A stretch of DNA of 64,000 bases from Undaria pinnatifida (taxonomy: Eukaryota; Sar; Phaeophyceae; Laminariales; Alariaceae). The notes under the pieces are model-generated. The model was not told the DNA's origin. It made no database searches and saw only the letters and a program-made list of their open reading frames with translations. Made by a program: the position numbers and the translations under genes. Below, piece by piece: positions 2,818-55,000 of the stretch. Each line of letters opens with the position of its first letter. Position 1 is the stretch's first letter. The stretch covers positions 4,232,001 through 4,296,000 of the forward strand of contig JABAKD010000002.1 in NCBI GenBank assembly GCA_012845835.1, in the 5' to 3' direction.

Positions 2818-3271
2818 ATGATCGGCCTTCTCAAGTTCGTGGTCGCCGAACTGGTGTCCTTCGCTATCCTAGCGGCGGGATCAGCACCGTGCACATCTGG
2901 TCCAGTTTATTTAACGGTGTTGACTGAAACCGACATCGAAAACGTCACCGCCGCCATGAACTGCAGCGGGAAGGCGGAATTCCACATTACCTGGCAGGGG
3001 ATAGTACAAATTACTCAACCTTTCCAGGTCTCCGACCACAAGAATCTGACGGTCACGGGTGGTGTTTTAGATGGTGCAGGCGTCGCTGCTGTTGTCGACG
3101 GGGGAAACACAACCGGAATGTTTGAAGTTTCGGAGGGGTCAACGCTCATTCTTAGTGGAATGATGCTTAAGAGGGGCAACTCCGACAGAGGAGGTGCCGT
3201 GTTTGTCACAGGCTCCAGCGCTCTAAGCGTGGTCGACTGCGGCTTTACCGACAATCTCGCTTGGAAAGGAG
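2818..3271 (+). CDS. Exon 1: start codon, signal peptide, first beta-helix segment
   Basis: Opens MIGLLKFVVAELVSFAILAA, a hydrophobic leader ending near AAGSA, then a domain containing several NxT/NxS sites. The end carries GGAVFV and FTDN motifs and closes with KGG. The donor is G|gtgagatg at 3271/3272, phase 1. I chose this ATG because it begins the signal peptide. A pyrimidine-rich tract ending in cag lies 4 bases upstream (2797-2813), so the translation start is probably just inside an exon whose 5' UTR is split by an intron. Confidence 0.85.
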
Positions 3272-6200
3272 GTGAGATGTATGTATTTTAAGCATAAACG
3301 CAGATGATATGTGAGTAATTTTGCTTAAACGTGAGTTATGTGTGCAGTACCGAACGCTTTGAAGAAGCAGTGAGTGCTGGCTCATGCATGACTTCTAGTT
3401 TGAGAAAGGATGGGCCGTGCACGTGTGACTGATTCTACGATAGCCTCCCCCAAAACCAGCGATGTTCTTTAACGAACGTTTAGGGGCTGCTCGACAGAAG
3501 GAAGGATACTATCGAAAGAAAGGTATCCGCACATTTTCTTGCGTGCAAAGGTCTATCGATCGATGGCGTCGGGGTGTCGAGGGACACCGTGTTTTATTAG
3601 TTACGACCGGGAGCTGGTTTTGAAACCGGCGATTTCGTTAAATGAATGTTAGGGGGGCTACCGTAGAACGACTCGTGTCTATTAGTGTATCGTCTCCCGG
3701 GTTGATTCTATTACTGTTAATGTTGCGTGGAGTTCTTATTGCCCCGTTTCGTAATGCAGTAGATGCCCTCTACTGTGGCAGGCACATTTATGGACAACTG
3801 GCTCCACTCATCAATGGGAAAGTGCCATGCCCGTAAATCGATGCAATTTTTCGGCCAAAACAAACAGAGCCGATCTAGAAGTATACGTGATTTTGCCAGA
3901 AACTGGTGGAATTTTCAAGAAATCTGCATGAATAGGCAAACGGAGTCGTGTTGTTAGGGTACGAACCCGCGTCAATGAGAAACAGGGGACCGGCTACCAT
4001 CGCGGGGATACCTAGCGCGCAATGATGGCCGCTGAAAAAAAATCAAGACAGTGGTTTCAAGGCCTGTCAGTTTAAGCTGATAAATTTTGAGCTTGTCACA
4101 GTATTGACCGCTGTACTGCTCGCCGTTTGTTTTCTCTGCAGCTTTAAACTGTGGGCGTAGAGACCTAGACCCACGCGAGTTGTAAGTGCGGTAGGTATGC
4201 CGACAACTCTCACATTGTGCCACACTTCGGCTTTTTAGGCTTGCACTTTTGAATGAGGGGGGCGGGATTACGGATGTGGGTGCAGGCAGCACTGTCAATT
4301 TAAAACACGGACGAAAGTTCGGTCAAATTCAACGCCAAGAAGACGGCTTATGTAGTAACCCAGATGGTTTTTTTTCAATCATATTTTACATGTACAAAAT
4401 GATGTTTGTTTCAGGTAGTATGTACGGCGTGTGGTGGCATATGCAGTGTGCGTTTGGACCTTGCACTATCTCGAAACCATGCTTGCGCCGCCGGGCGTAC
4501 TCCCAGCGTGTACCAGAGTGCACCCTGCCGGGACCCACGCCCCGACAAGCAGGCTGTTGTTGCCTCTACGTCGATGTTTGGGGTGTCCAACGTTTTCAAG
4601 TACTGTATCCGTGCAGGCTCCCAGTGTCACATACATACCAATGACTGGGGGGAAAATGCGTCAGGATGGCAGTCGCTGTGGCGCCCACCTACCTGACACT
4701 TGCACAAGGCTGCTCCTAAACACTAACACTCTCCCGTTTCTGTCAGGTGCCATTTTTGCTAGTGGGGCGACCGTTGATATCGCGGGCAACACGTTCTTCC
4801 ACAACAACTCTGATGATCGAACCGAGTTCAGCGGGGGTGGTGAGTCTCGTCAGATACAGACCGGGGTGCAGATTATAAGTAAAGATGAAAAGAAAAGCGG
4901 ATACACACGCCCGTCATCATCTGAGCAATAGCGCAGTTATCTCGAGGAGGCAAGCGCAACCAATGTCGACACCATTGTTTGTCGATGATTGTGGTCTAAC
5001 CGATGTGCGACGTCGTAGACTGTCCATTTTTTGGCGTAATCGCGCACGAGCGAACCCTTCTCTTGGGGCCTGCAGGTGCAATATTCGCGACGGAGGGGTC
5101 AGAGATTCACGTCTACGGCAGCGTGTCGTTCGCGCAGAACACTGCATTGGATGGAGGTATGACATCCCGCGACGTGATTAAAGACGTTCAGAAACACCTC
5201 GTAAGCACACTCGCAAAACAAGGGCGGGTCTAGCACAACCTAGATGACGACGGAGGACACAACCGACCAACACCATTAATGTTGAACCAACGCGCGTCCT
5301 CGTTGGTCTAGAAAGCGCAAAGCGCCCTCCCCATCATATGACCTCTACTGATTTGAACTTGTGCGAATGTCCGCAACTGTCTGGGTGGAGGGTGCTTTTT
5401 GACGTGGGCATTTGTGTACTAGATTCAGTGTACTCCAGCGACTTACAGGTTTGCCCAGAGCCCGTATAAGCTCTTCGAAGACTGTCACAACCTCAACACA
5501 CTTGCGCCCGACAGCGATTGTACGTGTGTGAAACCTCCGGCATCATGTATATATGCACCGTTATACAGCGTGGTTCGTTGTCTTTCCCCCTAACACTGCC
5601 CGTTTCTGAAGCAGTCGTCATTTGTACTTACAGGGCAGCGTTGGTTTTCTTTGTCAATCATTCAACGTTGGGTTGTGTCGTCGATTCTGGCAGATCCAAC
5701 GTAAATTGCAATCTATGTTTGGTCGGAAATACAGTTTTGATATGCATTAACAATCAAAACCGTTGTTCCTTTTGAGGGAGTTCGCGTAATGTTCGGCCAC
5801 ACAGTGATCTTGACGCAGTTGTGTTCGTTGAGTAAAGTGATTTGTCGTCCAAGATATATAAAAACGCAACCGGCCGCTGCTAGTTTACTGCTTCATGTTA
5901 AAATAGAGAAGCACACTGCCCTAACCGCGTGAACGACAAAGGGCACGGTGGATGAGAGAATGCAGTTGCTTCCAGTACCGTTGTTATACCACTCGCCGGA
6001 CTATCTCAGTACTTCGCATACAGACGACTATAATGTTTCGTCTTCAAATAAAAATTTGCCACGAACGAGATCAAGACGCTAACATTTGTGACGAGGTCGA
6101 AACGAGACTCGGGAACGCTTGACGACGGGACGGGCCGTCGTAAACGTCCCTCGGACTGGCGTGTCGGGTTTGTTTGCTGTTGACGCGGTATTTGTGACTG

Positions 6201-9200
6201 ACGTGCGCGGTGGGAACCCTTGTTGAACAACACATCGCAATAAGATACTACTTCTCGTGTAAACAGCAGATTGATCACCCCCGGAGATTTGCCTCCTCTA
6301 TCTGCAACCAAACGTTTATCTAGGCGATATTTAGAACTTCACATGAATGAAAAAAATTCCAGAGCAAAGGCTCTGACTTCTGCCAAACAAATGCAACACA
6401 AAACCGTGATTAGCGCGGTTCTCAAAGAAACGACGGTGGTGTTTTGTTGTGCCAAGGTTGCTACCCGAAAGCAATCAATACCAGGTGACGGGCATTCAAC
6501 GACCAATACTCTCATCAGCCTTGCACATTAGGTCCCGAGCCATCCTGCAACCCGCCCACTCAATGCCCAGGCAACCTAACTGTAACTCACGTTTTTGGTG
6601 ATCATACAGCACCTACAGCATAATTGTCTACATTAGACATGAGTGGCGCTTGTTCGTGTCCATCGCACCAAAAAGGGGTACGGGAAAAAACAACCAAGAA
6701 CAAAGACGCTGGATAAAACACGCATCGATATTGGAACGGGGACCGCGCTACTCTAGGATTGGCTGTGTTCGGGCACAAACCTTTTTACTGATGAGGCTCA
6801 ACTGCGGAGCTACGCGGCACTGTATGACGGTAGTTGCGGAATATTTACTCATGAAGGCTAACTTTGAACTCAAAAAAACTATACGAGGGGGACGATGGGA
6901 AGGGGGCGTGAAATGGAATTCGTAAAAAGTAAGGGCGCGTGCCACGTTAGAGGTGCACACCACTTTTCTTCTGAAGTTCTTCGCGTTACGAGCGTAAGAG
7001 CTCTCCCCAAAACTGATTTTGGGGATAACATAACTGCTACTCGTATCTAATACAAAATCCCATGGCCTCTAGGTGCACAACGAATATTATGCGGAAAAGT
7101 ATCGAATTTGACACGATTATGGGTTAAGGAGCCCCGTCGTGCGGAAACCATTTCAGACCAAACGTGCTACCTTGGTCGCAGCGCGCGTTTCTGATTGAAG
7201 GACTTGATTGATTTCCATGCTGAAAGGAGACGATAGGTGGCTCGCCTGCTGCTCGAGCCACCACCAACAGATGTATATAGTCTACGAAATTTGTGACGCA
7301 CGCCTTTGCGTAGCGCGTACGACCCGCATCATACTCGAGCCCTTTTTGCCCGCGAACAGGAGCTCTTAGAATTGTTAGGTCCTCGGTCCGCATTGGTGGT
7401 GAAACCGCTTTCATCGGAAACTCGGCGGGGGACCAAGGAGGTGAGAATGCACATTTTCTAGCTCGTTCAAATTGGCAAACATTTGCCTACGAAGTTCAGG
7501 CTAAATCGTGTGGTGTGGCCCATTTTTTGAAGTAGAACTCCGGGTATGCCGGGACAAGAATGACGACGCCATCCGTTCAACAAGATAAAATCGTGAAACT
7601 TGAGGAACGGGTACACAAACTTTGGCCGGGGGCGACTCTGTTCAGGGAAAACGGCCATCCTATCGCCTGTAGCCTAGGATATTGTCATACGCGACCTGAT
7701 CGAGAATATCAAAACGATCAGGTAGCCCTTCACTTGACTCGGACAAACATCCATCGCCATGACGAATAAACAGGCAGATAGTGTTCTTGCAACGCCCAGT
7801 GGTATGCCATGTGAGCCAGCAGTATTAGCTGTACCGATGCACACTTGGTAGCTGTATACCGGCTAAACCGTATCGATATTTGCTGGAAGCCAATCATGGT
7901 TTTAGTGGTCCGGTTATAGCAACAATATACGGTAGACGGAAAAACTGGCACTATAACAACGGCACCCATCGTACAATGTTTCGGATGAAATCAATTCCAG
8001 TTGTTCTGTCGTATGCCAACGGATTTGAACAACACTTGAAGGGGAAACGAATGAAATTATTGTTCGACTGGCCCGTTATCGACCATTCAATGCAAGTCAA
8101 AGAGGGAAGAAAAGGCTAGGGTCGTTTCGTGATAAATGCCAAGGAACGTATATCGAGCGGGGAAGGGGGGAGAAGAGCTTGCTTAGTAATGATGGATGAC
8201 GCGTGCTACGTTAGATGTATAACACGTTTTTTTTCTGGTGTTCATCAATGTGGGAGATCAAACCGCCTCCCAAAAACTGTTTTGAAGATAAATAAAGCTG
8301 CTACAGTATGAAACCCCCCATGGCCTAGGTACACAATCAGAATCACTCAAAAAGGGTGGCCTCTCTCCGACGATTTGCGGTCAAGGGAGTCCGTCATCCA
8401 CCAAACCAAGAGGCCGAAACAGTCTACCTCTTTAAAGTAGGATGCGTCGGATCTGAGCTACATAGGGAGGTAGAAAGAGTAACAAACGTCGCGAAGAAAG
8501 TCATCCAACAGTTGGTAGGGGTGCAACGAAAGTTTTAGAGTTTTGGAGTTCTTATCATGAGGAGCTAGCTCAATATCGTTTACCCGAAACAGGATATCTA
8601 AGGCACTTTTTCGCGCAATCCGTCCATCGCCTCTGTGAGCTCTAGTCAGAAAACAAAACGTACGCGGAACGCATGCGCTACGATAGAGGCAAGATGATTA
8701 GTCTGAAACGGAATTTTGATGACGGGACTCCTCAACCCCAACCCCTGTGAAACAGGTTGTTGTTTTGCATGTTCCTCGTTTTATGCCTAGGCCACAGGAT
8801 TTTTCGTCTCTTGTCAGTTTTAGTTTTCGCCAGATTTTTTTTGGGGGAAGGCTCTAAGCTCGGAAAGTGAGGGACCTCACAAAAAAAGCGGGGTGCATCT
8901 CCATCGTGGCACCAGTGTCACAAGCGTGTGTAGGACCAACCGGTAGTTCCTCATTTGAGGGCCTCAACCGGCCAGGTATACCTTTTTTTTGTTCAAAAAC
9001 GTGCGAGCTCCACCGTGGAATGCCTCAAGATAGCAAAGGGGTTGAGCAAAACCTATTATATAACAGGCAGTCCGTCACTTGACCGGAGGAGGAAACACCG
9101 ACAACACGAGCGCGGTGTTATCCCGGCAGGTGCAATATTCGCCTTGGCGTCTGAGGTATACGTGGCCAGCAGGAGTCCAATAACCGAAGGTGCAACGACA

Positions 9201-12200
9201 ACACTCCGAGGTATGAAAAAATATATCAACTTCAGTGTGAAAAAACAAAAGTCGCCTAGGAAGCGCTGCATCTGAAATATTCAGAGACGTCGTACAATCC
9301 TTGTGTCTCCCTCATACGTCATATTGGAAAAGTGGGGAAAACCTAGATCAAACAGATAACCAATCCCATGGCCTCGACAATTAATATCCGAACGGTATAG
9401 GTTAGTGCCTCGGTTACGGAGCTCCGTCACCCATGTTGCACGAGTAAAGACACGCCACCTCTCTCGTAGCGCACGTCTACTGCCTCTAATGGTTGATGGA
9501 CGAACGACCTTATAGTAGTAGAATATAATATACTTGAGGTGTTACAATGACGCTGTGAGAATCTTCATCTGCCAGTGCGGTAGGTAACTGTTGGTACACG
9601 GGCCACCTTCCCTGTCCGGCACACCAATCAAAGATGCACGAACACGTTCATGCCATAGCCTTTGCGGGCAGCGTTACATCATTTGCACGAAGGCAACAAA
9701 CCAATTGTCCGCTACACTATACGTCATTTATGTCAACGTCGCGGTATGTATGTGTTGAGGAGCTCCTTCTTTGTTCAGAGAGGAACAAGCGCATCAACAC
9801 CGTGTGCGCCCGGCGTAGTTTTTCTTGTCCAACGGCAGCTCTATAGTATTCGCAACGTCATCTCTGTATTGCTTCCTCGGCTTCCCGCGTCTACGTGCAG
9901 CTAGTCCTAACCGTAACCCATTACACTAATCTGCAGTCCCCCCATACGTATGATATCTGCATACGAAGAGCGCCATCGCTAAAGTGCTTGTCTCATGGGA
10001 GATTTTTTGACGGATACACACGAACACCTTGGCTTTTCATCAAGCAGTCGCCCTAGTAAACTTCGCCTGCTTCCATTTTTTCATCTGCAGGTTCCTTTCG
10101 ATGTGGGCACATTGAGGCATCCATCGGCGAAGGACCGTCATTCACCAACAACAGGGCCGAGAACGGAGGAGGTGAAAAACAGCTATCCCCTATGCGACTA
10201 GATGCTATTTGCAACGGATTTGTTTGTTTCTCTTTCGGCCAATGCGGCGGGAAGGGGTAACGTCCAAAAACTGTGCTGCGTATGTAACTACTTAAATGTT
10301 GCGTCTTTCTGCTAGAATATATAATATATACACCACGAGGTACGGGGTGCCCGTGTTTTCACTACCCAATCTTAGTCGACTTCGGCAAGAGGCGCTGTAC
10401 TCCCCTAGGAACGAAATCCATGTATTGGTTGGTCCGCGTTATTAACCAAATATAAACCAAAATATGGCGCTTGTATACAAACTACGATAGACAGAGGTGC
10501 CCCTTGTATTGTTTTTGGATCTTCGCTTGAGGAGCTCCCTACCTCACACAGTGATTTTTAATACGAGTATAGACTATATACGTAACCTACGACAAAAACG
10601 CCCATAGTCCAGGTAGGCGAAAGTAATATACGTGTTTTAAAACAAGAACGACATCCCGACGACTTGGAGCTAACGTACGGCCTTCAAAGGCCGGCAGTTG
10701 CTAAATTTAGATAGGTAACTAACCGTGTTCGTGTGATTGGATGGCGTTATATTATCCGGGGATTCCTCAGGAGACGGAGAGACTCGTGCCTCCCGTCCCA
10801 GTTGCCATCTCGATTATGGTGGAATAATGAAACCTGCTTCTCTCCCGCCTTGAGACACGAAAGTGAACAACACCGGGGACGTGCCTACTTGATCGATCTG
10901 TGTAGGGATACTCGGTGTCTCACCCCTAGCAACTTCACAATAAGGAGCCCGGTCATTCACACACTTCATGGACATGCAATTGTAAGTGCTACCTCTATCG
11001 CAGAACGTGACGAAAACCCGCGAAACCACTAAACCACGAAGTAAGGAAACAATAAACCGCGTGGACACAGCGTGACACACCTCTTACTTGGTCGGGGGAC
11101 TAAGACCGACCGACAAGCAAAAGCATGACGGGCGTTAGGTCAACGCCTCGGCTGTTAGAGTGTGAAGCACTTGTTGGGTTGCCACAGTAAGATCTGCGGC
11201 GTGCATACATAAGTAAGGGATTAAGCGGACAACCACAGGCCCTGGAGCCACACCAACAACGTCATCGCCCACTGGAGCATTGACAGTGACCTCAGTCATC
11301 GCGCGTTTCATCCCCTCGATTGTTTCAACCGTGCTACGCTGAGTATTAGCTAGGAACGAGTTGATGTTCGCGTACATCGGCAGGCTTATTATTTAGGCTA
11401 CAGTAGTCATCGTGGCGAAAAACAAAACGAGTAATTAGTTGGCGTACTGTAGTGTATAGGAGAGTTTGCTCGTTTTAGATCGCAATGTAAACGCAGCTGG
11501 TGGATCATCTTATTCCTACCGAAGTTCATGGCGTTGTAGATGGATGGGTTGGGAATCGTCTGGCCTATAACTAGGCGAAAAATCCAGCCGTGTCACAGCC
11601 CCAGTAAACAGTCTCGATGCAAAATCGTCGACACCCTGACAAAGAACACAAGGTTCGTCACTATATAATAGCTTTTGTCGGCCGCCTTAAGCGTAAAATA
11701 TCACGTATAACAGAGGCAAAAACTGATTCAATACGTTAAACGTAGACCAACCAAAACCTGGGTGTCCGACCCGAAAACGCCTAATCGAACCAGAGTACAT
11801 ATAATCTCGTTGAATCACTTTTTGGCAGCGAAACAAGTGTCATATCGGCGCGTCCCTAGCTGTCCGCTCGAGCGTCGAGGTATCATTGTCTCGGGCAGAC
11901 GGCCGCTAACGTTGGAAAAAGGTATTTTTTATTGAGGCTATGTACAGCTCCTCCATGACCGCGGATGAAGATCGACGAATGCTACCTGCCGACAGGTGCC
12001 ATTTTTTCGGGAAACTCGGACGTCGAAATCGATGGATACACAACATTCACAAGCAACTTTGCCGTTACCGAACGGGGAGGTGAGATGCAACTCATGTCGC
12101 ACAGGTGGGACTTATATCAAAATATTACCATGTAGGACCAGGACGTCAGTACGAGGGTTGCGTTTAGAGCTCAGATTTCAGCGTCCCAGCGCCACTCGCC

Positions 12201-15200
12201 CCTGAGGCTACCTCATTGCTTTATGACTTTATGTGCTTCTCATTTCGGAGGAAGGCAGTCCCACACATTTCTTCCATCACCTGCATGAACACGATATCAT
12301 AACGTCCGGGTTTTGGTGGCGTACGGACCCACTTGCCCGGTTGTGGACTCTGGGTTCTCCCTCTTATCGTTGCCTTGGTCGCACAGCATATAATCGTACG
12401 TTGGGGAGATTCGAGCAAACGTTTGGCTCGTCGCGGGTAAATGTACATGCTCACGCTCGAGCAATCGCAGAACTCGGATCGAACGGATTCAAGCAGATTG
12501 AGTCGGACATGCCACGGGTTGCGTATATATCGTACAGTACCTCTTACACCGTGAACGCCAAAGAGCAATGCAGTGCACTTCGCAGAACGAGTAAACCAGG
12601 AACACGAAAGGCAGTATTACGTTTACAGGCGAATGGCATGGATCCGGGAGACCGTATTACTGGTGAAAACGTAGAACGCACACGGTATTTGAGACTCTTG
12701 TCCGTTGATCTGCTCTGTAACACTTGTCGTATAAATTCCACTGATTTAGTTTGTTACCCCACACTGTGCAGATCTTTAGTTAAACCCAATACCATCTGTG
12801 CACGCCTTCCATGACTCAAACCCCTGACATAACGGTTCCAAGGTTCCTGCTTCACACGAATCATGCAAATCATATCCGCATTGAACGAAGGCGCAATATT
12901 CACGTTAACGTAGTTGAGGTTCCCAGGGAGGGGCCTGTGTAGTTTAACTGTCAACGCCCGATGCCGTGAGGACCAACAACATATATTGACCAATGCTACA
13001 CTTGAGGAGTAACGTTCGGGGCACGTTTTTGCAGTGGCCCGCGTCACTCGCCTAGGTATGATTTCGTTTAACCGAGGTGCAGAGTAACTCGAGCAAGTGG
13101 CCCAAACCCGACACGCGAAAGAGGGTACCCCCACCTACGGCAGTCTTAGACTAATGTCCACAGCGGGAAAGCAGTTGCTTACTACACCAGAAGTAGGTGT
13201 ATATCTTCTTGGCCATAAAACGGTCCACTGACGGGGTTCCTCACACGAGTAACTGCCCAACTTGGTTGGAGCCGATATATCTTTTGTACGTGCTGTACAA
13301 TGTCTAGCCCGTTGGGTTGTTTGTTGAACTTAGGTCACATTTTTGTTTTCTAACGCGGTGGTAGGTTAAGGCCATTCTTGGCTTCCTCGTGTGGGGAGCA
13401 TATCATGCAATTGATTTGAGCAACTCTACCATAGCACGAACCAGCAAGACTCTGATACTCTTGTCAACCACGTCAACGGCTACCTGCTGCGTCCGGCAGG
13501 CGCACTGCGTGCTTACGGTTCTAACATATCCGTCGACGGTGACACCGGCTTCATCGACAACGCTGCGTCCAAAGGAGGTGGGTGAAGACAAGCATACCAA
13601 TGCAAGAAACCTCGGATAGCCGGGCAGCACTGTTACAGCCAAGGTGAACGCCGTAGTTGCACCTAACGTTTATTCGCCGAGGAACAACCCGATGCTTGGC
13701 GCACAAGTACCGTTCGCAGTGCTCGACACTTTTCGGACTCCATAACGTGGTGCACGGTCTCCAAGAACGGATGAACCCTGCTCGATGATACACGAACACG
13801 AGGCCTGAACGAAGACCTCGCACTCGTACATAATACGGACGGTTGATGTGGGGTTGACTAGGCCAGTAGATCTGTTTATAAGAAGTCACAACGAAACAAG
13901 CAACGCCAGAAATGGTCTATAACGTGTATCGCCAACCATTGCACTTCGACACTTCTCGTAGTCAAACCGCAATATTTGAAGTTGTATTAACCAATGCGTT
14001 GGTCAACAGGGACCGCTTGATGGGAACTTCTCTTCTCTCTCTAGCTGGGATATGAGCAGAACAATGGTGGCGATTTAGGGGGGAGGGGGTCCTCTCATTC
14101 AAGCTGTCCAGTCAAAAGTCGCTCGCGCGAGTGTCTCCAAAAAATTGTTTATAACAGGAATCAGAATACGTTGCTGTCGCTTTGCTATCCGCATGGTCAT
14201 GGTGGCTTTACACACCGCAGTTCATACACAAGCACAACACAAGGTAAACATTCGATCGACTAACAATGACGCCCTCACCGTAGCCTTCTTCCACGGACTA
14301 CGATGGGCAGGCATTTTGACCGTCCTTCAAGCTTGAAAAAAATATTGCGGTCAATGTGCCAGTTCGTACAAAACCTTTTGCTGCAAAGGGCTGAAGCATG
14401 GCGCGACGAGCTTTTCTTCTACGCGTACTGTGGGATAAGTCTGTTATCGTCGTCCTATCTTCTTTTCCCCTAGAGGTAAATTGTGGTTTATAAGCATTTG
14501 GTCGTCTACATTCGCTATGAACACTCAAGAAACTAGTATATTATAACAGTTTCGAGACAAAAAACGACTCAAGATACCCTGCCTAGTTGTTTTCGCCGCA
14601 TCCCCTCACAACTTCAATTTTGAACTCACCGCCTGCAGACTCCCATTGGCTTGTTCAGGCAGAGTAGCCCCACCGAGTATATCATTGTAACATGCCGTGC
14701 GCGTGTCATCGGCGGATTCGTTCTTCGCTCGCTTATCGGTTTAGCCAAACCCAGTCAAGCATACCTTCGGAACATCTATACGATATATAGTTGAGGAAAG
14801 TAATGTTTGTGTTTAGTACCACAGTCGGCCAGAACCATTGAACCATGAACACAATTCGTGACGTTCACAATACCTAAATGCTTGGTTTGGATTCTCCATG
14901 ACGGGGTGAGCTAACGGTAAAGACATGCGGATGTGCGGAAGGAATCTCCTTCCCTGTACTAACTAAAAAAGGCGGCAGCGCATCATAGCAGAAGTTGAGG
15001 TTATGGGGACTTGGCCCGCTGTTGTTGTTGGTGTTTCTTTCGAGAACTCTTCTTTCAGCAGTGACTCTCCTTACCTAGAGACCTTTCTCGTCTTATATTT
15101 TTCGTTGGATCTCCCGAAGCTTTTAATGGGTCAGGTCGAATTTCGCGGGTCAGGTCGAGTCGGGTCGGGTCGGGTCGGGTCGGGTCGGGTCGGGTCGGGT

Positions 15201-24200: not shown

Positions 24201-27200
24201 AGCTTTTTCCCACCAAATGGCGAGACAGCAATGTGTTCGAGAGCATTTCTACTTCGAGGCATATCTTATCCTTTCCCCGACTTACCGCCGGGGTATGACC
24301 CCTATTCTCCAGCCCCTCTTGTCTAATCTGGCTGCTCCCTGGCTCGGTCAACCTCGACAGGAACAGCAGCTCCTCTGCGTCCCGTCACCCCAACATTACG
24401 CGTGGCATCCTCACCAAAAATCGTCTCTCTTGCTGCTGTCGTATCTCCTCCCGGTCCGCCTCCGGCGGTAGCAGCAGCGGGAGAATAAATTTCTCGTGCA
24501 GCAGTAAATGCAGCCCCTCGTGGGCCTTTACAGAGGCACTATCTTCAGCGCTGTTCCCCCTTACAGCAGCGCTGCCCTCAGCGCCGTTGGACTCCCACGG
24601 AACGTTTTTCTCCAAGAGATCGGCCATCATTTTTCTTATGTCGTGCATCATCGATGCCTACCTCTGCTCTATCATCAACTGAGGCTCAGCCTTCAGCTGC
24701 TGAATCCCACCCGTGGAGTCTGTCTTCTGTGCAGAGATAATTTGCTCGCGGTACCGGATCCGTTACTTTCACGAACACTCAAGAACGCACTAGTGTGCTC
24801 GTAGAGTCCAAGCCCGGATGCCCTGACTGGCTCGCGTTCTGACGAGTGTTCTTATTTTTTTTGTATTAGAAATCAGAGAGCAGAAAAGTAGCAGATACTG
24901 GAGTGCTAGAACCTTCCTCCCTGATAGGAAGAAGTGCATTAAAACGCCTGCTAATATATACGCAACCCTTTACCATTTCTGTAACCGTCTTGCTGTGACG
25001 ATGCAAACTCACAATCGAGCTAAGAGGACGAGAGTTTCACGTCCGATGCAACTACCAAACACACATGATCTGACCTCATACCAGGTACACGAGGCGCACA
25101 GCAGTAGCAAATACATTATCTCACGTTTCGTCACGTTTGCTGTCATGTTTTGCTTCGTTAGGAACGGCCTTCATACTTATCACTGGACAGGCTATGCATT
25201 CTCCCATCTCGACTTGCGACGCACCGGGGATATCAACTTGACCTCCGTCAAGAGGAAGAACCTTGTATCATCCATAGAAATGACATCGCCCGCTTCGTGA
25301 GATGCTTGTAAATGTCAGGTATATCTCAACTTGTTTGTGGCACAACAAAAAAAATCTCAAGTATTTAAACGTCACCGCTCGGGGAATTTAAATTTCAAGT
25401 CACCGATTGGTGACTTTTCTTAAAACCCCAACCCATGTGCGATTCACAGTTGTAACCCCTGTACTATCAGACCCGTTATCTAGTGGCTTGGGTCAAACTA
25501 GCCTGCAGCTGGTGGACACCGTAGTGTGCTCCCAACCTCTAGACTAAAAACCATTATTGTGACGTCGTCGTTTGCTGCAATGCTCAACTCAAATGCGAAG
25601 GGGTCGCATGGCGCGGGGTTTTTCAGCAGTGATATAAAGAAGCGTCGCAACAAGAAGCCGAGGAGCCCACGTTAATCAACGCAGATGTCTTAATTCTCCG
25701 CGGTACTTCTCGAATTTTCACCAATACTACTAGGCAGAGTCTAGTTAGCCTCGCTATCCGCAGATGCTTCAATACGTTTTTCTGCATGGTGTTCGGTTGG
25801 CTTCGGTGCGGGACCCGTGCTGCGATTGAGGCAACATATTTTATGGCTAAACCAACTGCTTTCGGACGGGCCTCTTAAACCGAAGAGGTCCCCTACATGG
25901 TTGGAATGCCATCTGTGGTTCTGAATCATCCCACGGTAGGGGTTGCACTTTCTGCGCCAAAAAGTCCCTGGACGATTGAGTTCCTCATGTGAGGAACTGC
26001 CGGTCAACGAAGTAATTTCACGAGTACATTATAGTTTTGGACTAAGACATAGAAGCTTGGTCGGGTTTTGCGAACGAATGCCTTCGAAGTTATTTTTTGG
26101 GTGAGATATTGAGTTCTTCATATGAGCAGCTCGGGGACTTTTGGGTGCAACCCCTACCGTGGGATGACTCTTCTGTCGACAAGCCCATCCCACGGTACAG
26201 GTGCAGCAGAAAGTCCCTGAGTTCATCACATGGGGAACTCAATATCTCACCCGAAAAAATGACTTAGAAGGCATTCGTTCGCACAACCTGACCAAGCTTC
26301 TATGCCTTAGTCCTAAAACATGTTGTACTCGTGAAATTGCTTTACTAGCAGGTAGCCCCTCACACGAGGAGCTCAATTGGCCATGGACGTTTTAGCGCAA
26401 AAATTGCAACCCTTGACTGTGAGATTACTCCGACATGCATCTACATATTTTGTTATAGGCATCTGGACCGTGGGAACGGTCGTCGAGTTGAACTTCCTTT
26501 TGGGCCTCACGGTCAGCTTTGGGCGACAAAACAAAACCCTCTGGGGAGGAGCCCTCGACAACGTCAGTGCTGCCGCTCTCGTATTATGCGTGGCCACGTC
26601 CTCTTGTAGACCCATTGGAATCACCACGTATCTAACGACAAAATGAATCATGTGTGGGTGCCGATCATTGCATTAATTCATGAAACCCCAAGCATCGTTG
26701 CTGCTACCGTGTATCTTGTGGAAAGGTGTAGTAGACAAAGCGACGCAATCCGTATACGTATTATGCTGAATACAGTATTTGACAACGCAGAAGTAGGCAA
26801 CAAAGGTTATTACGTAGCAGAACCGTGATTCATTTTTAGAAGCTGCTGCGTGTACACTTTGCTGTTTCTTCGCTTCAACTTTTCAAGTGTGGGCCCGAAC
26901 GTAATGTTCAGTAGCCATTGCACACACTTTTCTTCACCCATCCCACCACTTACCAATAGAGTGTACTATTGAAACGCGACCCGTTAATTGAATCGTTGCG
27001 ATGTGTCCGCCCAATTGCCGGGCGAGATCCACAGGCCTTTGTTGATCTGTAGCGTGTGACACCAACATCTCCTTCTGCCGTAGGATAGATCCTCTCAACA
27101 CAACGCGCGCGCACAGTCCCTCCGTTTTAGGATATTTTCTGTTGCAAACGCTTGCGGTGTGTTCGGGCCATTCACATGCAGGTGCTATTGACGTATTCAA

Positions 27201-30200
27201 ATCAGACGTACGAATCGTCGGCAATGCTTGGTTCGAGAGCAACTGGGTCAGCCACAGTGGAGGTAAGGACTCGTTGGTCTGAAGTGTACTGTACAGGATA
27301 CTTGAGACATGTGCTACGTTACGGAAATCACTGCGTGGATATTTGATGCTTGTTTGCCGATCGAAGTGAGGGACCACCAAGTATCGCTGGGATACCAGTT
27401 TTGCTCTGCAAGAAAGCTGTTTGTATTCTGCAATGCCGCGATATGTTGACCATCGGGTTGGAGTCTCCTTTTTGTTTCAAGTAATATGTTAGGCGTCGTG
27501 CTGACCTCCTCAATATAAAAAATAAAACCCCTCAGCCACCCCTACCATACTATGACTACAGTGCCCAACGGCGAACCCATATCGGGTTTTTTTCGGTTTG
27601 GGGTAAATGGAGTTTCTCGATGACAACATCTCTAGTTCACGAGCGGTTCACTTGTTGTCTAGGTTGCCCACTGCATTCGACATGTTTTATTCTCAAGCGC
27701 ACAAACCAAATGAATATCATCTGTTATATCACGGCCAGAAAGTGTCTATCTACAAGGGGGAAAATGGCTTAGTTCCTGCTTGAAAAATACCAAATTGCGA
27801 ACTCAAGCACGAGACCTCAACAATCCATCAACGAGAGCCTCTCGGCGCTATCAATCGAAACAACATGTACGTTTTTATTATCGTAAAACACTATTAATGC
27901 GTGTTGACCGAGTAGATACACTTTGAAAATGTGGACGATAGTACGTGATCCCTAGATAGGGAATAAGGTTTCGGCGCATGCATGAATATCTCAGACCGGC
28001 GGGGTTCTTCGCCCCAGCAGATCGCTGGAATGCAGTTGGTCCCTTTCTATACAATTGGTGGAATTCCAACATAGGCCACCATGAAGTTGTTCATCTGCCA
28101 CCATTTTCAATTTATCTCAAGGTGAAGCATGCGTGGGTACGACATATAGGTCTTCACGTGACCTCTCCGGGAGATTGCCCCCCCCCCCCCCACCGTCGCT
28201 TTGTCTGGAAACGCTAACATATTCAGTACAGTTGACACTTGCTACCCTAGTGGTCGGACCTAAACGACTAGAATGGTTGATAGGGCGATGAAACCGATGA
28301 TCCGCCCATGTTGCCTGCAGCCCCAGTACACCGAGCTATTGTGTTTATCCAGGCGCATACAGTTGGCTGTAGAAGCACGCGAATACAGCCTTCATGGTAG
28401 CAGGTAACTGGCTACAGGTTTGGGAACGCTTCGCATGTGTGAGCAGCCTAACATACAGTTGTAACCTCCTTATCGAACGACGCGTCCAAAAGCAAAAACG
28501 CACCACTTGTTGTGGCATAACTTTGCGCGATCACGGTGTGTGTGACGGACAATACTATATATTGCACCTTAATATATTGCACCTTAGTTGCGAAGGGAGT
28601 CGCCGACCTATATCCTTAATGAGGACACACAACCTGTAACACGCGCGATCGGAGTATCACACACAGCTTGCAAAGACGAGTTCCGACAAAATATTCGATC
28701 TCACAGCTGGAGTGTATTTTTATTTTTTATTATATGTTGAACCTGGTGACAACTGGAAACTCTCACGTGAATGTCTCGATTGCATCTCTCTTGCACCCTG
28801 GCGCATGATGATGACAACCAGTGAGGGACGACGTACGATTTTCTAAAGTATTGAACAATACACGTTCTGTTTTCCAACGCCTACTACTGCAGGTGCCTTC
28901 CGGGTTAACCACGGGACGGCACACGTCGGCAAAAACGCATCCTTTTGCAACAACTGGGCTGGAGACTTCGGAGGTGAAACTTGATTCATTCAAGAACGAA
29001 GCATGTCTCGAACTTCAGAAGTATTGGAAGAGAGGGGAGTCTGGGACAAGACGATTTTGGGGTTGAGTAAAGGTTTTGATTTCCGTGTGGGAACCCGTGC
29101 GCAAGGCGAGGACCTCGGCGCCTGGGTTCACCGCTGTCAAGATTGGGCGCATGTTCCCCGTTAAAGACGAAAGGTACCGATACGGATATACTCAGAATAT
29201 TTCTATCGCATGACGGGGTGCAAACGATTCACGCTACAGTAAGTCGGTCTTGGTGGATGCCAGCATCCGGTTATCGTGACCTACTTCTACAGGTACAAAA
29301 ACATAAACACCGACCAGGCTGGTACGTGAGGAGGTGGTATTCTTCTTCGCATTTATTTTCCTGGCAAACTTTGCTCAGACACTGGCGACCGCATGTTATT
29401 GCGGCTCCAAAGGCACCCCCTTGGAATCATGCCTCCCGCGATGTTGCTTTTCCAACCTCGACCGATTACGAAAGCCTGACGTTTCGAAGAGTAGCTGGCG
29501 GCGGCAAGCATGTGCACAGTCTCATGAATATGGGCAAGCATTACGAACACAGTGTGTATCAAAAAACGCATCGCCAGGTGGAGATGACCGCTATTCTTTA
29601 CAAGGATCAGCATAGATATACGTCTGCCTGCTGTGTCTCGTGCCAAATTGTTGGGAACGTTCCTCAGGCGCACATATTCATGCTCGCTCTTAGATGCGTG
29701 TCAAACGCGTGGCAGTTTTTTTGGAAGGTTTTGGAATTGATGCCGGTGCCAGTTGAAATACGGGACCCCCTCTAATACGTTCTCTACTCCTTCCTCAATT
29801 ATCCTGTTGCATGTACGAGCAGGGGCAATTTCAGTGACCCCGGCGAAGCTTTCACTCGACGGAAAGGCCTACTTTTTCAATAATTCCGCCAACAGTACTG
29901 AACACGGTGGAGGTGAGGACCTCGGCGTGTCCCAGAGCACAGTCTCGATTGTCGGTGTGGGCGTTGAGATTGACATCGTCAGTGAATGTAGTTCGCAGAT
30001 GAAAATGTATATAACCGTTTCTTGACCAGCCTACTGCGCCTACCCAACGGCCGTGTGTCTCACCAACGAGGTTGAATACAGTGTATGTAGTTCGGAGGAG
30101 TTCATACTGCAACATATGGGGGACGAATCTACCGCTTCCCCGAGGATAGTTCCCCTCACCAACCGCTTTTTCACGAAGCCGAAGCGGGAGACCGTACACG

Positions 30201-32600
30201 TCCGCATTACGCACAACATGGCTGCCAACAAGGTCCCGTTATTGTATCAGTGTTTCGAATAGCAAATGTAAGGACAAGCCATTACCCAAACGATGCACGG
30301 CAACAAAAAACTATCGGCGTCTGTTCGCGGGAGATGAACGAATTTCTCACTTTTGTTGCTGATCAAGACCTAACTTTGCGATGGTATCAGAACACATTTT
30401 TCTTCTCAATAGATATGAACGCCTGCTGTCACCCTCTTTCGTTCTTAGAGTCTGTCCTGTCTCCTTGCTGGTACCTGTTTACCAAGCAATTTAAAGTCTG
30501 CCGTGTGGTTAATCGATGTATCGCCAAAACTCACTCAAGAAGCAGCGTCTTCGATATTAACGCCTCCGACAACGCGCGCATTATATCATTAACGGCAGGC
30601 GCCCTTATTGCTTTCAACTCCAACGTATCCATCGGGGGCAACGCATTATTCGTTGAAAACACTGCTCTGCTGGGAGGTAAGAAAGTACAGTAGGGGTCCC
30701 TCTATAGGACATGCAGTCCCTCTATAGGACCTGCAGAATACTTTCCGGTTGCCTGCTAGGACGTCTGCGCCATACGTATATATCTCGGCACTGATAGGAA
30801 CAACCGGTAGTGGCGGTATACGGAGTAGTGGCTGTTACCGCAATAGCGCTGGTGAGCCGGCTATTTTAGCACCTACCTGGACAACAGTTGAAAACACTGA
30901 TCTGCGGGGAGGTAAGAAGGTACGGTAGGGGTCCCTCTATAGGACATGCAGTCCCTCGATAGGACCTGCAGAATACGTCCCGGTTGCCTGCTGCTACGAC
31001 GTCTGCGCCGCATATCTTGGCACAGATAGGAACAACCGGTGGTGGCGGTATACGAAGTAGTGGCTGTTACCGCAATAGCGCTGGTGAGCCGGCTATAATA
31101 GCACCTACCTGGACAACAGAGAGACAGCCAGAGTGATCGACAGACCGTTTATCCACCTAATCTCCGTCTACCTGGGTCTTGGCGCAATCTGCGACAAGGA
31201 GCACACCAACGTTTTCCCGGGGTTGTTTGCCTGAGGAGCGTTTTGCTTCAACGAGCACCTGATTGTGGGTAAAACAATAGTAGCGACCCGAAAAATACAT
31301 TATGTGGCCCAAGTACGCAACGAGGAATTATAACAAGCATCGACATCAATTGACAATGGTATGGCGTAGCTCGTCGGTCAAAGCGCCGATTTAGTCAGGC
31401 CAAGCGAATTGACAAAACCGTGCTACCCTTATCGGAGCATATACGACATATTAATATCCACAGAATGTATTTTTCATGAAACTTTGGTCCTTCTCTGAGT
31501 CCGGTTGAGTAAAGCCGGGTACCAGCTTTAGTGGTGGCTGTCAAATTCCGCAGCCAATGTTCTTGAGGAAAGATCAACCAGCAATGGCAGTGTGCGGAGT
31601 AGTGCCGGTTACCACTACACTGCCAGTATATGCCGCTGGCACATACCGGTGCTATAGGGAGCCAATTATTGTACTCGAGAACCAGTAGGAACTCTTAGAT
31701 GCTTGTTCACAGTACAAATATGGGCGAGCGAGGGGGGGGGGGGGGGGGGGGGGGGAGCAACCGTGATCATGGGATGCGTAGACGTGCATTTAAGGTCACG
31801 CCCCACGAGGAAGTTAGTTAGAATAGCGAGAGAAGGGAGAGAAAATACATAGACGGGAAAAGGAAAACATCAATGGCCGCCGAAGCAGAGCTGGTAATAA
31901 GCACCAAAAACAAATGCTAACTTATGGTGTGTATTTCTCTTCGTGATATCCCAAACAAGCGCCATATATCTAATTATATCGCTTTCGTGACAGCAAAGGG
32001 CATGGGTTAACTGGTAGTGGCGCTTGTTCACGAATCATGACATACAAAACACTCAATGAGAATGAAGAAAACAACGAAGCCACTTTTCGTGAAAAAAAAC
32101 GCGAGTAGAAACAAAATGCGTGGGACACAACGCCTGCTCCGAAAAGTTTTCCACTTTCTTTTGTTCGGGTGAGTCTTCGTCTTTAATAATCTGTTAGTGT
32201 ATAGGCGGTGAATCCATTGTCGCTTCGGTGGGCTACCGATCGATCACACACGACCAACAATTATGGTAACCATTGGTTCGCCTTTCGTATTAATTCGGTT
32301 GGGTCGTTCCTCGGGGCTATCTGTGCTGCGTCTGCAACGCCATGGGCATGGTTACCGAATGGCATTCGGCGTGGACGGCCAACACGGGCTACAAAGGTGG
32401 AGGTGAGGATGGCTAGATTTTTTGTTGTTGTCTGTTGATGTTGTTGTTTTCGTTGTTGTTGTTGTTGTTGTTGTTGTTGTTGCTGTTGCTTTTGTTGTTG
32501 TTGTTGCTGTTGTTGTTGTTGTTGTTGTTGGCTGATAGTTGTTGTTGGCTGGCTGTTGTTGTTGTCGTTGTTGTCATTGTTGCTGTTGTTGTTGTTGTGG

Positions 32601-32665
<65 letters not shown>

Positions 32666-35600
32666 GCTGTTGTTGCTGCTGTTGTTGCTGCTGTTGTTGT
32701 CGTTTTTGTTGTTCCCTGTGGTTGGCTATTGTTGCTGATGCCGTTGATGTTGGCTTCTGTTTTTTAATTACAGCTGAAGTAAATGATATTGATGATGCTG
32801 TACGTGGTTGCGGATGCTGAAAATGGTTAGTATTCAGGACATCAGCGCTCATACTGCATACGCTCGGAAGGTATTCGTAACCAAAACAAATAAATACGCC
32901 GGTCCCCGGTTTTGTACAAAAACTATCGTTTTTGCAGGAGCAGTGTTCTCAGTTGACGAAACGGAGGTGACCATAGGCGGCTCCGCTTCTTTTTTATACA
33001 ACGTGGCCTACTCAAACGGAGGTGAGCAATTCCAAATATTTAGTCACGTTGGCCATGCGTTTCCCATAGTTGCGGCAGGCAAAGACCCCAATACACGCAA
33101 TCTAACACGCCCACTGCATACAGGTCTGATTCAAAAGTGCTGTAGAGCCGGAGGGGAGAGATGTGATACATAACGTTCGGGTTGCATAGATACGTAGATT
33201 GCGGCAGAAGTGTTGTTGGGTTACTCTATACACACTCAAAACTATCCCACGGGAGGGGTGCAGCAGATTACAAGAATTTTTGGAGCTCCTAACATGAGGA
33301 AGGAGCCGAATTATCTATCCCGAAACATGGTTCGAAGGCAATTATTTTGCGCAATCCCATCAAAGCTTCTATTCCCCATCCCTAAACCAAAGTGTGCTCG
33401 TGAAAAAATTAGGCTGACCGTTAGGTCCTCACTTGAGGAGCCCAACCGGGGACAGGTACGTTAGTTAAACCAAACGTCCAACCCCTGCCGTGGCATGCCT
33501 CCACAATCGCTCGGCGTTTGTACGGTGATCGTTTTCGGGCAAACCGATGTCGAGAAAGCCAGTTGATAACCTTGTCGCAGTCGTTTGTGATATGCTTTCG
33601 AGACACGGCGACGTAGATGTGAACGGTGAGCGTAGAGGTCGAACACAACTAGAATTCATATGTACTCTTGTCAACAGTCAGCAATCCCCCGTGAGGCTTG
33701 CGTTGGCTGTCGGGGACGCGGTCGGTATTCCAAACAACCCGAACGCGCCCCGTCCAATGCGCGATTGAGAGAACCTGCATATTGCTGAACGGATACCATC
33801 AGTTCACAGAGCATCTGTTTTCAATGACCCAGGCTACATTAGGGGGGTCCCTTTTTGGGCCTTAAATTTCACTGGCTAGGGGTCACTCGCGCGAGTAACC
33901 CCTTTGTTCTTGTGCGATCTTACGTTTTCTTCATGATATATATTGATGAAATCAATCCGCAATGCAATGGTAATCTAAGATGCTCCGAAAAAACTGTTCA
34001 AACCATTTTCATCCGTGAGGTACAGCGTCACTCGTGCGACTGCCTCAAACACACCAGTGAAATCGGGGGTACCCCCCCTACCGTAGCCTTGGTCCAATGT
34101 CAGTTCGTGCATAGATGTGCCAGGAAGTTGTCTGGATGTCTTTAGCGGTGCCTGTTCACGACACACAGCCTGAACCTATAGTCACGTCGCGCAGTTACCC
34201 GACATTTAGGGCCAATACTATATTCAACACGACAAATGGGGGGGGGGCATCGTCTCCTCAACTATCGATGTTTAGACAACGTACGTCAATACGGTCTGTG
34301 TTGAGTCGAGAACGTTATTGTTAGCCGCGAGGTACCCCCCTAAAAAGGAAGCTTGACATTACAAACAAATAGGGTAGGCACTCGACAGAGATGTCTTGAG
34401 CCACCACGATAATGGTAACAAACCATGGCTCCCCGACTTTGGTCTCCGCCGACGTGTGGTTGTGAAACGATAAGCGTAACAACGCAGACCAGTCGTAGCC
34501 CCTTGTAGTTCTCCGGCACTTTGGCCAACACTTTCGTCCATCATAGCTAGAAAGGAACGGTGACCCGATGTTTCGATGAAGTTCACCGAATAGCACCGTG
34601 GCCAAACTTTGTAAATTCGCGATCTACGACGTTCGAGAAATCAGAACGAACACATTATTGTGTGTTTTCGTGTTCATGAGCGAACCGAGGATGTTAATTC
34701 CGGCGCTCTCGCCTGTAGACGTTTAAAGTTCTCCGATCAAGCTGCTTGTCATGGTTTGTCAGTGAGTTACAACTAGGATCACCGTCTAGGGGCAAGTTGG
34801 CATGTTTTTCAATGTTGCGTATTCTCTCTCATACTGGGAGATCCCTTGTCAGATTCGATGCAGGATGGACACAATAATCATTGTACAATCACTAAGACCA
34901 GTGACCTTAATAGGCTATGGCCTTTAAATATTGTCGTCCAAAATTCGTCTAATATTCCCCGGCGTTCGTTTGATACACACCGCCACAAACACGCGGTGTG
35001 GATATCTCCGGTTTATTGATGCAATTAATATATTGGTCGTCAACGCGCAGGAGCTATTCGAGTGCAAAACAGTTCTGCGCTCGGCATCGATGGGGACCCC
35101 GTTTTCAGCTCGAATTCAGCTAGCGCTGGAGGTGAGCATCCGAACGCGTCTTTGGAATCCATTGCCACACCGTGACCAAGGCAAACATAGAGAGCTCCCT
35201 GTTAAAGTCGACAATAACATTCTTTCCACATCCTTTTTAAGCCATTCATCTGCATGTCTACTGACCCAACTTGACTATAGCCTTGTTCGGGTGTGCCGTC
35301 TGGGTAGGCACGACCATGCAATCTCCGTTTGTCGCGCTTCAGCATATAAAACGTATCTGTTTCATATCAGCGGTACAAATCGTCTCGAGCGAGTGGCCTG
35401 AACGACGTAGGGGAACGGAGGCTTCAAGCTATAGTACCCCGGTGGCCTTGGTCACTTCACGTATCATTTTTGAAATATATTTTTGTGTGAGCTCGATGTT
35501 TAGGGCATACCGGTAGCTGGTTTTTATAGTCATGTAGAACATGGCGCGAAGAGTATTGTATATAAAAACTATACTCGATTCCGTTACGATGTGCCCGTAA

Positions 35601-38600
35601 ACCCCGCTCCTTAAATAAGCAGGCCGCTGGTGAAGTACAGATCATGCGTACCACGCAACAATCACGAGTGTGTGGGTTCTGAACTATCTCATACACATTT
35701 GATCGCCTTGTATCCTCTGCGCAGTCGTGGCGGTGGCGATACAGCGGCCTCTTCTTCCTGCTAGACACAAGACATTTCCAATTGACATCCAAAAGCTGTT
35801 GTCCGATCCGAACCCCGACCCGGGTGCCGATGTATCGATGCTTCCGATGCCATGTGTCGAGTACTATACACTAGATATCACCCCCGTAAACGTGGTATAC
35901 CTGCCAGCCCCTGAATATTGGAAGATAGCACTGGAGTGGTGATGTTCACCGACGGCAATGTTGCGGTAGGAAACATGATATTTCGAGTGCAGCCGAAATA
36001 ATCTTGAACTATTCTGCACGTGCGACCGTTTAAACGAACTTCTCACATGCTGTATATATGTATCAACATCACGAACCCATATTTGATAAAGCTCCGGAAA
36101 CCTCGCTCGGCACTGGGCGGGGGACGCTGGTTGTGGTTTGAGGCCACGGAACAAGTTTGTACTGACATAGTTATCAACTTTCACTTTGGTCCTGTACTAT
36201 GTTTTCTATCGCACAATGTGTGGTGTGAGCGTCGGAGATTATCGCTCGCAAGTATCTTAATACGGCAGACGAACATTTAGGGAAACCGATCGTATGTACA
36301 TATATCACTCGTGATTTATAATTGAACGGCGTCGAGCCGGTGTTGGTTAACGCTCTTCCAGCTCTATTCAACACTTCAGGAGGAGAATGGTTTCCCTTTC
36401 TAAGTACGGGCTGCCGCTGTTCTGCTTCGTTGTCAGGTGCTATTTCCGAGTATGCCTGCATTTTGATTGTGGACGGCAACCCGATCTTCACCCACAACTC
36501 AGCCTACGTCAACGGAGGTGGGAAGGGCGAAAGACCAGGGCTTCGATACATTATTCAGTCTCAACGTTACCTGTTGATTTTCCAACCACGATATTGTAGG
36601 TGGCTGTTGTTGCGCGTGCGTAAGGGTCAAACCCAAACCATGATATAAACCCCCGACACACCACACGCCTGTCGGGACATCAAATATACTAAGCACATAA
36701 ACTGATGACTTCGACGGCATTCAGGTTTAAAAGCAACGTGTCAACCCCAAGAACATAGAGGGTTCATCATGTGTGCCTTAACCTTGTCGTGATTTGTAGG
36801 TGCCATACACTCCGCAGAGGCGGAACGCATCATGATGAAAGGAGGCATGGAGTTCATAGACAACGCGACCGGGGGGAGAGGAGGGGCAATTTCAATTCGA
36901 AGTCCGGGCGAGTTCGGTATTAACGGGGGGATATTCAAACGCAACACAGCTTTTCTCGGCGGAGCCGTATATTTATCCGTATTTGAAGACACCCAGCGAG
37001 CACTAAGTGCTTGCGATTTCGAGGACAACACGGCGGCGGATGGAGGCGCGCTCTATTTGGACACTGGAGGGGGGTTGGACAGGATCACGTCTTCAAACTT
37101 CCGTGGTAACTTGGCAGGTAAGAGCGCAACTTCAAATGTTTTGGATTGTGTGATGGCACTGATCACGCGCTGTACTAGCAGCAATGTCCTGTCTTGATCG
37201 GTTTATATTAAGGCTTCATCTAGATGTGGTTTCAAGGACAAAAAAATTGGAAGTTGACGTTGGCTACGATATATAGCTTCTGAAATCCATCCACGGTCCA
37301 GTCATAAGAAAAAATGGTGACGTCGGCAGCGCAATTACCACCTAGTGGTGTCATCAATTGAAATTGATGGTCATCTGGGAGTTCGTAGAAGTCGTAGAGC
37401 GAAAACGTGTTTACGAGTCCCTGTGTCTAAATAACAATATTAGCTACCAGATATGATGTATTCCATCGTTAGTGATACGAACCCCCCTGAGGACGTCAGA
37501 GAGACGGTATCACGATGATCATTAACTATCGAATAATTGGCCACAGTCTGATTGTTTTTGGCATTCAACCGAATCAATCCAAGACCAAGGCTACGGTAGG
37601 GGGGTACCCCCGTTTTCACTGGTGTGTTTGAGCCACTCGCACGAGTAGCTCTGTACCCTACGGATGAAGATGGTTTAGGAACTTGGTTTGCCGCAGCTTA
37701 GATCACCTTTGCAGTGCGAATTGATTTCGTCAACGTAAAACATAAAGAAAACGTAAGATTGCATAGAAAAAAAGGGGTTACTCGCGCGAGTGACCCCTAG
37801 CCACTGAAATAAAAGGCCCAAAAGGGGACCCCCCTACCGTAGCCTGGGTCCCAAGGAGCGCTGACACCTTAACAGCATGATCATAGTCGTACTAGTCATC
37901 CTCTTAAGGCTTCATATAGGCTGATATAAAGACTCAAAATGCAAGTGGTTTAATCCCTATCGCTGAGCCTCAAGCCGTTTAACACAAGTTGTACGCGAAT
38001 GTTCTATATGTGAAACCTTATACGCGTGTATCAACATTGTGCATGACCACGGGCATTGTTGACGATACAAAAATCTGCATGATAATGACCAACGTTATAC
38101 CTCTCAGCAATCACAGCAACATCATCGTCACAGTCGGCACCGCTGCCATATCTAGCATGATGGTGACATCGTGCTATCGTCATGATACTCGTCATCTTCA
38201 TCATTATCATCACCATCATAATTACCATACCAATCTTCATCATCATCATCATCATCGTCAGCGTCCTCATCAACATCAGAGTCCTCCTCGTCATCATTAC
38301 CATCGTCAACGTCATCATCATCGTCGTCGTCATCATCCTCCAAATCATCATCACCCTCCTCATGATGATATTCACCATAACGATAATCATCAACATCGTC
38401 ATCATCACCATCATCATCTTTACCATCATCGTCATCATCATTATCATCATCACCATCTTGATCATCATCACCCCATCATCACCGTCGTCGTCATCGTCGT
38501 CATCATCATCATCTTCGTCATCATAATCTTCGGCATGATCATCGTCAGCATAACCACTACCGATCAAGGCTACTATAAGGGGGGGTGCCTCAATTTTTAC

Positions 38601-53990: not shown

Positions 53991-53999
53991 ATGGCGGCA

Positions 54000-54998: not shown

Positions 54999-55000
54999 TA

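Follow-up and report, generated by a model that had tools for sequence, protein, structure and literature searches.

A predicted gene of the kelp Undaria pinnatifida contains an array of 14 short exons, each encoding a single repeat of the GGA[ILV]/FxxN type and each bounded by introns that interrupt a glycine codon in the same phase. The gene lies on the forward strand of contig JABAKD010000002.1 (GenBank assembly GCA_012845835.1) within the 64,000-nucleotide stretch from 4,232,001 to 4,296,000, referred to here as the window and numbered from its first letter. This exon-cassette feature is genuine, has clear limits and recurs throughout the family. The gene is probably one member of a large family of kelp proteins, predicted to reside in membranes, for which the use of the array lies in the gain and loss of cassettes during evolution.

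The One-repeat Exon Array

Exons 2–15 (4747–36517, + strand) are 78–93 nucleotides long, all are multiples of three, and all are in phase 1 on both sides. The acceptors read cag/G and the donors G/gt in all 14 exons and, with the flanking exons included, every donor of exons 1–15 ends in G and every acceptor of exons 2–16 begins with G. Because of this uniformity, whichever donor is spliced to whichever acceptor downstream of it, the junction encodes an in-frame Gly, which bears out the proposal of the initial annotation that exons could be skipped or swapped without a change of frame. Its description of 14 phase 1-symmetric exons, with these positions and lengths, was likewise confirmed from the sequence and with held-out profiles. 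Further details had been given as uniform and hold with exceptions. The GGAG donor is found in 12 of the 14 exons, but exon 2 has GGTG and exon 5 CGAG; each exon encodes one unit of the expected type, with a Gly-Ala start in 13 of 14 (Gly-Ser in exon 6) and the FxxN motif kept in 13 of 14 (all except exon 5).

Two repeat profiles built without any exon of the focal gene were used to examine the array, with a match defined as a score of 8 bits or more overlapping an exon. All 14 focal exons were matched by a profile from 19 paralogue exons (8.8–30.8 bits) and again by one from 36 repeats of intron-free relatives (8.5–29.7 bits), with no match on the reverse strand in either case; exon 5 was the weakest in both (8.8 and 8.5 bits). 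The chance level was taken from an earlier profile of 23 repeats, nine of them focal exons, with which 20 first-order random sequences the size of the window gave six matches of at least 8 bits in total and none of at least 12. A scan blind to splice sites (8 bits per domain) recovered 13 of the 17 listed repeat-bearing exons of the focal gene, with no match outside the listed exons and none on the reverse strand.

Gene Model

Spliced as drawn, the gene would comprise 20 exons over ∼49 kb (2818–52015, + strand), with 3693 coding nucleotides, 45.5 kb of intron and a product of 1230 residues. The reading frame is uninterrupted from start to stop, and an assembly artifact or pseudogene is disfavored because the model is open from end to end. 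All of exons 1–16 exit in phase 1, with exons 17–20 departing from this pattern.

Exon 1 (2818–3271) carries the ATG, a signal-like N terminus, the N-cap and a first repeat, in the frame MIGLLKFVVAELVSFAILAAG, and closes with the phase 1 donor GGAG/gtgaga; its tail (3194–3271) scores 11.1 and 16.0 bits with the two held-out profiles. The single-repeat exons follow, recognized by their splice sites and the held-out profiles: exon 2 (4747–4839, 93 nucleotides), exon 3 (5076–5156, 81 nucleotides) and exon 4 (7360–7440, 81 nucleotides), then exon 5 (9130–9210, 81 nucleotides), a degenerate repeat with intact splice sites, whose boundaries were read directly from the DNA letters, outside the automatic exon list. 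Exon 6, with the Gly-Ser start (10091–10171, 81 nucleotides), exon 7 (11996–12079, 84 nucleotides) and exon 8 (13500–13577, 78 nucleotides) precede the 13.6-kb intron 8, downstream of which are exons 9 (27182–27262, 81 nucleotides), 10 (28893–28973, 81 nucleotides), 11 (29823–29912, 90 nucleotides), 12 (30599–30676, 78 nucleotides), 13 (32938–33021, 84 nucleotides), 14 (35051–35131, 81 nucleotides) and 15 (36437–36517, 81 nucleotides).

Exon 16 (36800–37117, 318 nucleotides) consists of several fused repeats, is in phase 1 at both ends and matches Chlam_PMP with an expectation value (E) of 1.6e-5. The last repeat-like stretch is in exon 17 (45520–45695), which enters in phase 1 and leaves in phase 0 and scores 11.9 bits at 45541–45621. 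Exon 18 (47978–48290) encodes a Cys-rich stretch that aligns inside full-length homologues, exon 19 (49708–50012) the end of this stretch and the first hydrophobic helix, and exon 20 (51044–52015) the predicted helical multi-span C terminus, together with the stop codon. The signal-like N terminus and helical multi-span C terminus suggest that the protein is located at the cell surface or in a membrane.

Paralogues in the Kelp Genome

The layout was compared across the genome from which the window derives (68 contigs, 511,146,479 bases), where the C-terminal exon gave 122 matching rows, fragments and stop-bearing copies included, and exon 16 gave 53. Four paralogous loci (P1–P4) with C-terminal identities of 59–62% to the focal gene were examined over 50 kb each. 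The focal gene has 14 single-repeat exons, P1 has seven, P2 has three, P3 at least five and P4 at least nine, the last two numbers being lower bounds; exon 1 was reached in P1 and P2 alone. All 38 cassettes of the five loci encode one repeat each, are multiples of three in phase 1 and have G at both ends; they are 78–102 nucleotides long and 33 of them have the GGAG donor. The splice-blind scan found no repeats outside the listed exons on the forward strand of the five loci, and a single 8.4-bit match on the reverse strand of P3. The exon-per-repeat layout is a trait of the subfamily and is not peculiar to the focal locus.

Two more distant paralogues have no introns between their repeats. L052 (7–2388) contains 20 repeat units and L053 (2–1705) contains 16, each in one frame, of 793 codons in L052 and at least 567 codons in L053. 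They share the repeat, the N-cap and the C-cap with the focal gene and differ from it in having all repeats in a single frame; the C-terminal exons nearby are 38% and 37% identical to that of the focal gene.

Repeat Family, Predicted Fold and Relatives

GGAI/FxxN repeats are the mark of the chlamydial Pmp proteins. The spliced model matches the Pfam family PF02415 (Chlam_PMP) with an E value of 1.9e-23 and 80.4 bits, against a gathering cut-off of 20.6, which upholds the repeat identity given in the initial annotation. PF02415 was the sole family found in the Pfam scan at E values up to 1, and the autotransporter β-barrel PF03797 was not matched. The β-helix assigned to the repeats at the same time is supported by the predicted structure of a homologue, P0132, which aligns with the focal model at 32% identity over 96%. 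In this model the ectodomain forms a right-handed β-helix of stacked coils with three strands per coil and approximately one coil per repeat, suggesting that one exon of the kelp gene would correspond to one rung. The C-terminal exon is predicted to be helical (mean predicted local distance difference test score, pLDDT, 72.4). No clear relative of this modeled fold was found in the PDB, and a search of its sequence against solved structures returned nothing convincing (best E value 0.76).

Database relatives were taken from the best 120 of 1225 protein matches to the spliced model. They include proteins from Scytosiphon (P0121, 34% identity over 96%), Ectocarpus (P0123, 32% over 98%; P0124, 32% over 91%), Undaria itself (P0125, 32% over 85%) and Tribonema (P0142, 30% over 95%). 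The Scytosiphon, Ectocarpus and Undaria proteins, compared at the protein level and entered as unnamed products, have both PF02415 and the helical C terminus in common with the focal model and belong to the same sequence family. No near-identical full-length model of the focal gene is among these 120 matches, and the gene may thus be unannotated or annotated in pieces. The best named match to exon 20 is a Laminaria digitata protein (75% identity over 86% of the query). A protein search with the array alone gave top matches of 27–37% identity and did not find an orthologous array. In PMC10573767, a Saccharina unigene with the name polymorphic outer membrane protein responds in its expression to treatment with cadmium and iodine, which indicates that there is transcription from at least one gene of this name.

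Proposed Gain and Loss of Cassettes

In the explanation favored here, the protein would have a signal-like N terminus, a GGA[ILV]/FxxN β-helix ectodomain, a Cys-rich collar and a helical multi-span C terminus. The middle of the β-helix would be the cassette array, with one exon per rung and phase 1 introns splitting the conserved Gly codon, and a cassette that was duplicated, deleted or skipped together with its intron would add or remove one whole rung without a frameshift. The variable rungs would lie between two fixed ends, an N-cap encoded by exon 1 and a C-cap encoded from exon 16 onward. Repeat number would drift among paralogues as exon-intron units were gained and lost, and the family would have multiplied preferentially near chromosome ends. 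The anatomy, the phase, the family-wide layout, the differing cassette numbers and the fold of the homologue form the established basis of this reading; that cassette gain and loss caused the numbers to differ is what we infer from it. Recognition of cell-wall glycans or microbes by the ectodomain would be a guess.

The relationships among individual cassettes are compatible with such turnover. Focal exons 2 and 3 are closest, among the units compared, to the first and second repeat exons of P1, and focal exon 15 pairs best with a set of units that includes some in last position. This pairing of the end exons by position, together with the twofold difference in number between the focal gene and P1, fits an array with old ends and a changing middle. 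A possible dead repeat exon is present in intron 8 (18133–18216, + strand), where 84 nucleotides between cag/G and G/gtg contain an internal stop and repeat-like halves in two frames. This region is outside the gene model, and one of the two held-out profiles gave a 9.2-bit match at 18179–18310; tentatively, it may represent a former cassette that was inactivated in situ. Apart from this candidate, the held-out profiles revealed no hidden cassettes in the 13.6 kb of intron 8.

Several observations weigh against the favored explanation. The splice junctions are predictions from genomic DNA. P2 and P4 each have one stop inside the C-terminal match and may be damaged copies. P1 and P3, which are 105 kb apart and constitute the sole close pair, are collinear in all five comparable cassettes, with introns still recognizable. 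Similarity among repeats within the focal gene (mean 0.33) is no higher than that between genes (0.31–0.36), so that recent local duplication is not visible. Self-comparison of the focal locus, from which matches with a start at 14.9–16.1 kb were excluded, gave no match that holds a whole repeat exon, and the sole match to touch an exon is a tandem duplication of 235 bp with 89.5% identity (30652–30887 and 30887–31119, + strand) that reproduces the final 25 bases of exon 12 together with its donor. Duplication in blocks of four was rejected, the highest mean score, at a lag of four, being reached in 1035 of 5000 permutations. As to chromosome ends, C-terminal exons lie within 500 kb of a contig end in 23 of 62 cases, at 16 different ends, compared with an expected 5.8%, but tandem copies were counted separately and the contigs were scaffolded by Hi-C, which makes the computed enrichment P values too small. 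These 62 are the near full-length rows (63 of the 122, E values up to 1e-53) on contigs longer than 5 Mb, one on a 205-kb contig having been removed. The corresponding figure for exon 16 is 22 of 52 (53 rows, one dropped). TTAGGG-type repeats were seen at six of eight contig ends inspected, and the focal gene itself lies 4.2 Mb inside its contig, not among the end-located copies.

Selection on the cassettes was assessed in the P1–P3 pair. For the pooled cassettes (five exons, 399 nucleotides, one pair) nonsynonymous divergence (dN) was 0.098 and synonymous divergence (dS) 0.190, compared with 0.102 and 0.427 for exon 16 and 0.086 and 0.331 for the C terminus. The cassettes are thus constrained, approximately half as strictly by dN/dS as exon 16 and the C terminus, with no overall excess of dN in this pooled comparison; taken singly, one of the five had a dN (0.066) slightly above its dS (0.058). 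Rapid shuffling is not borne out by this pair. A genome-wide search for DNA copies of the cassettes, in which 39 of 6409 candidates were scored, returned an interspersed repeat of ∼270 bp, further repeats and no exon match.

Alternative Explanations

The collinearity of P1 and P3, the constraint on their cassettes and the lack of any whole-cassette self-match in the focal gene are all consistent with a passive relic, in which exon duplication enlarged the array in the distant past, the array is now fixed, and the protein serves in adhesion or in the cell wall in an ordinary way, without generating diversity. This is a possible reading, if not the expected one, and it is opposed by the presence of three to 14 cassettes among paralogues that are ∼60% identical in the C-terminal exon, showing that the number has not stayed constant throughout the history of the family. 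The origin of the layout could alternatively lie in late intron insertion, where the repeats came first and introns subsequently entered the AG/G of GGA GGN GCN, leaving the symmetry as a by-product. The intron-free arrays of L052 and L053 demonstrate that the repeat exists in this genome in such a state, the uninterrupted junctions within exon 16 have GGAG in three of four cases, and the prevalence of GGAG among cassette donors is as insertion would predict. However, AG/G is found at only eight of 38 intron-free junctions, yet all 38 cassettes hold a single repeat and no exon within the arrays holds two, and insertion alone leaves the varying number of cassettes unexplained. Saturated arrays of varying number appear to favor multiplication of the exon-intron unit, with the caveat that sites may have changed after insertion, and late insertion is considered unlikely.

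A combinatorial splicing device has also been considered, in which cassettes are alternatively skipped to give, on paper, up to 2^14 in-frame combinations, as proposed for the ROCO genes of brown algae. All donor-acceptor pairs of the array preserve the frame and yield Gly; exon 5, a degenerate repeat that has nevertheless kept its splice sites, would be tolerable if it could be skipped; and the ROCO genes of Ectocarpus, in which each symmetric exon likewise encodes a single repeat, are described in PMC11378527 as giving several splice variants. Phase symmetry is, however, expected without alternative splicing too, and in the sole case where alternative models were seen, P0132 and P0139 (t1 and t2 of one gene) are identical over residues 1–739, the entire array, and differ after it. 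The divergence between the two is in the Cys-rich and first-helix region. As an account of the array, such a device seems quite improbable. Very unlikely, too, is the most far-reaching view, that dozens of near-telomere β-helix membrane proteins give kelps a third recognition system based on exon cassettes, in addition to the ROCO-LRR and NB-TPR genes, with rungs re-cut to vary surface binding, both through exons gained or lost from one generation to the next and through alternative splicing in the individual. The diversity by exon shuffling envisaged in the initial annotation stands in part: exon numbers do differ among paralogues, but the P1–P3 comparison and the self-comparison do not support it. 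Generation of diversity by the favored gain and loss of cassettes would be plausible over evolutionary time, and diversity made by splicing within an individual would be possible.

Other Elements in the Window

The gene is flanked by 1-kb direct repeats (1089–2103 and 53993–55000, 83% identical), and an inverted match of 74% identity pairs 53032–53998 with 60745–61695. Intron 8 includes a long tandem repeat (∼14967–16142) in which frames read (GSGRV)n or (DPTRP)n. An interspersed repeat of ∼270 bp is present as an inverted pair at 33826–34094 and 37583–37850, and the first of these has ∼40 further copies among the matches listed, at ∼84–100% identity. At the edge of the window (63623–64000, − strand), a frame resembles, as judged by eye, the end of a copia-type retroelement polyprotein.

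Comparison with Known Systems

The kelp gene has the GGA[ILV] and FxxN repeat in common with PF02415 repeat proteins. It differs from chlamydial Pmp proteins in being eukaryotic and intron-bearing, with a C terminus predicted to be helical and the PF03797 barrel unmatched. The right-handed β-helix predicted for the ectodomain of the homologue is also found in Vag8, pertactin, phage tailspikes, alginate lyases and epimerases, where sequence identities are 7–14% among the alignments listed and a common function is not implied.

If one exon is one solenoid rung, genome sequence alone suffices to count the length of the ectodomain, as a heritable trait. Whether the receptor repertoires of brown algae arise from repeat cassettes, by evolution or by splicing, is a question raised earlier for the ROCO and NB-TPR genes that this family would then allow to be tested cleanly, and the presence of intron-free and exon-per-rung members in one genome permits a direct look at whether repeats turn over faster when introns lie at their borders. 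No description of an exon-per-rung layout for GGAI/FxxN β-helix genes was found in the open-licence literature searched.

The closest parallel is with the brown-algal ROCO (LRR-ROC-COR) genes, for which PMC11378527 describes one leucine-rich repeat (LRR) per symmetric exon, variable repeat number, splice variants and positively selected sites, and cites NB-TPR genes as a similar exon-per-repeat case. By that account, the ROCO genes and the kelp gene are alike in having one repeat per exon, a single symmetric phase, a variable number of repeats and the standing of candidate receptors. The unit in ROCO is an LRR encoded by a 72-nucleotide exon in phase 2, whereas in the kelp gene it is a β-helix rung encoded by 78–102 nucleotides in phase 1, and the ROC-COR domains of the former contrast with the predicted helical multi-span C terminus of the latter. 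The splice variants and positively selected sites are features reported for the ROCO genes. The exon-per-rung β-helix is a fresh variation on the known exon-per-repeat theme of brown algae.

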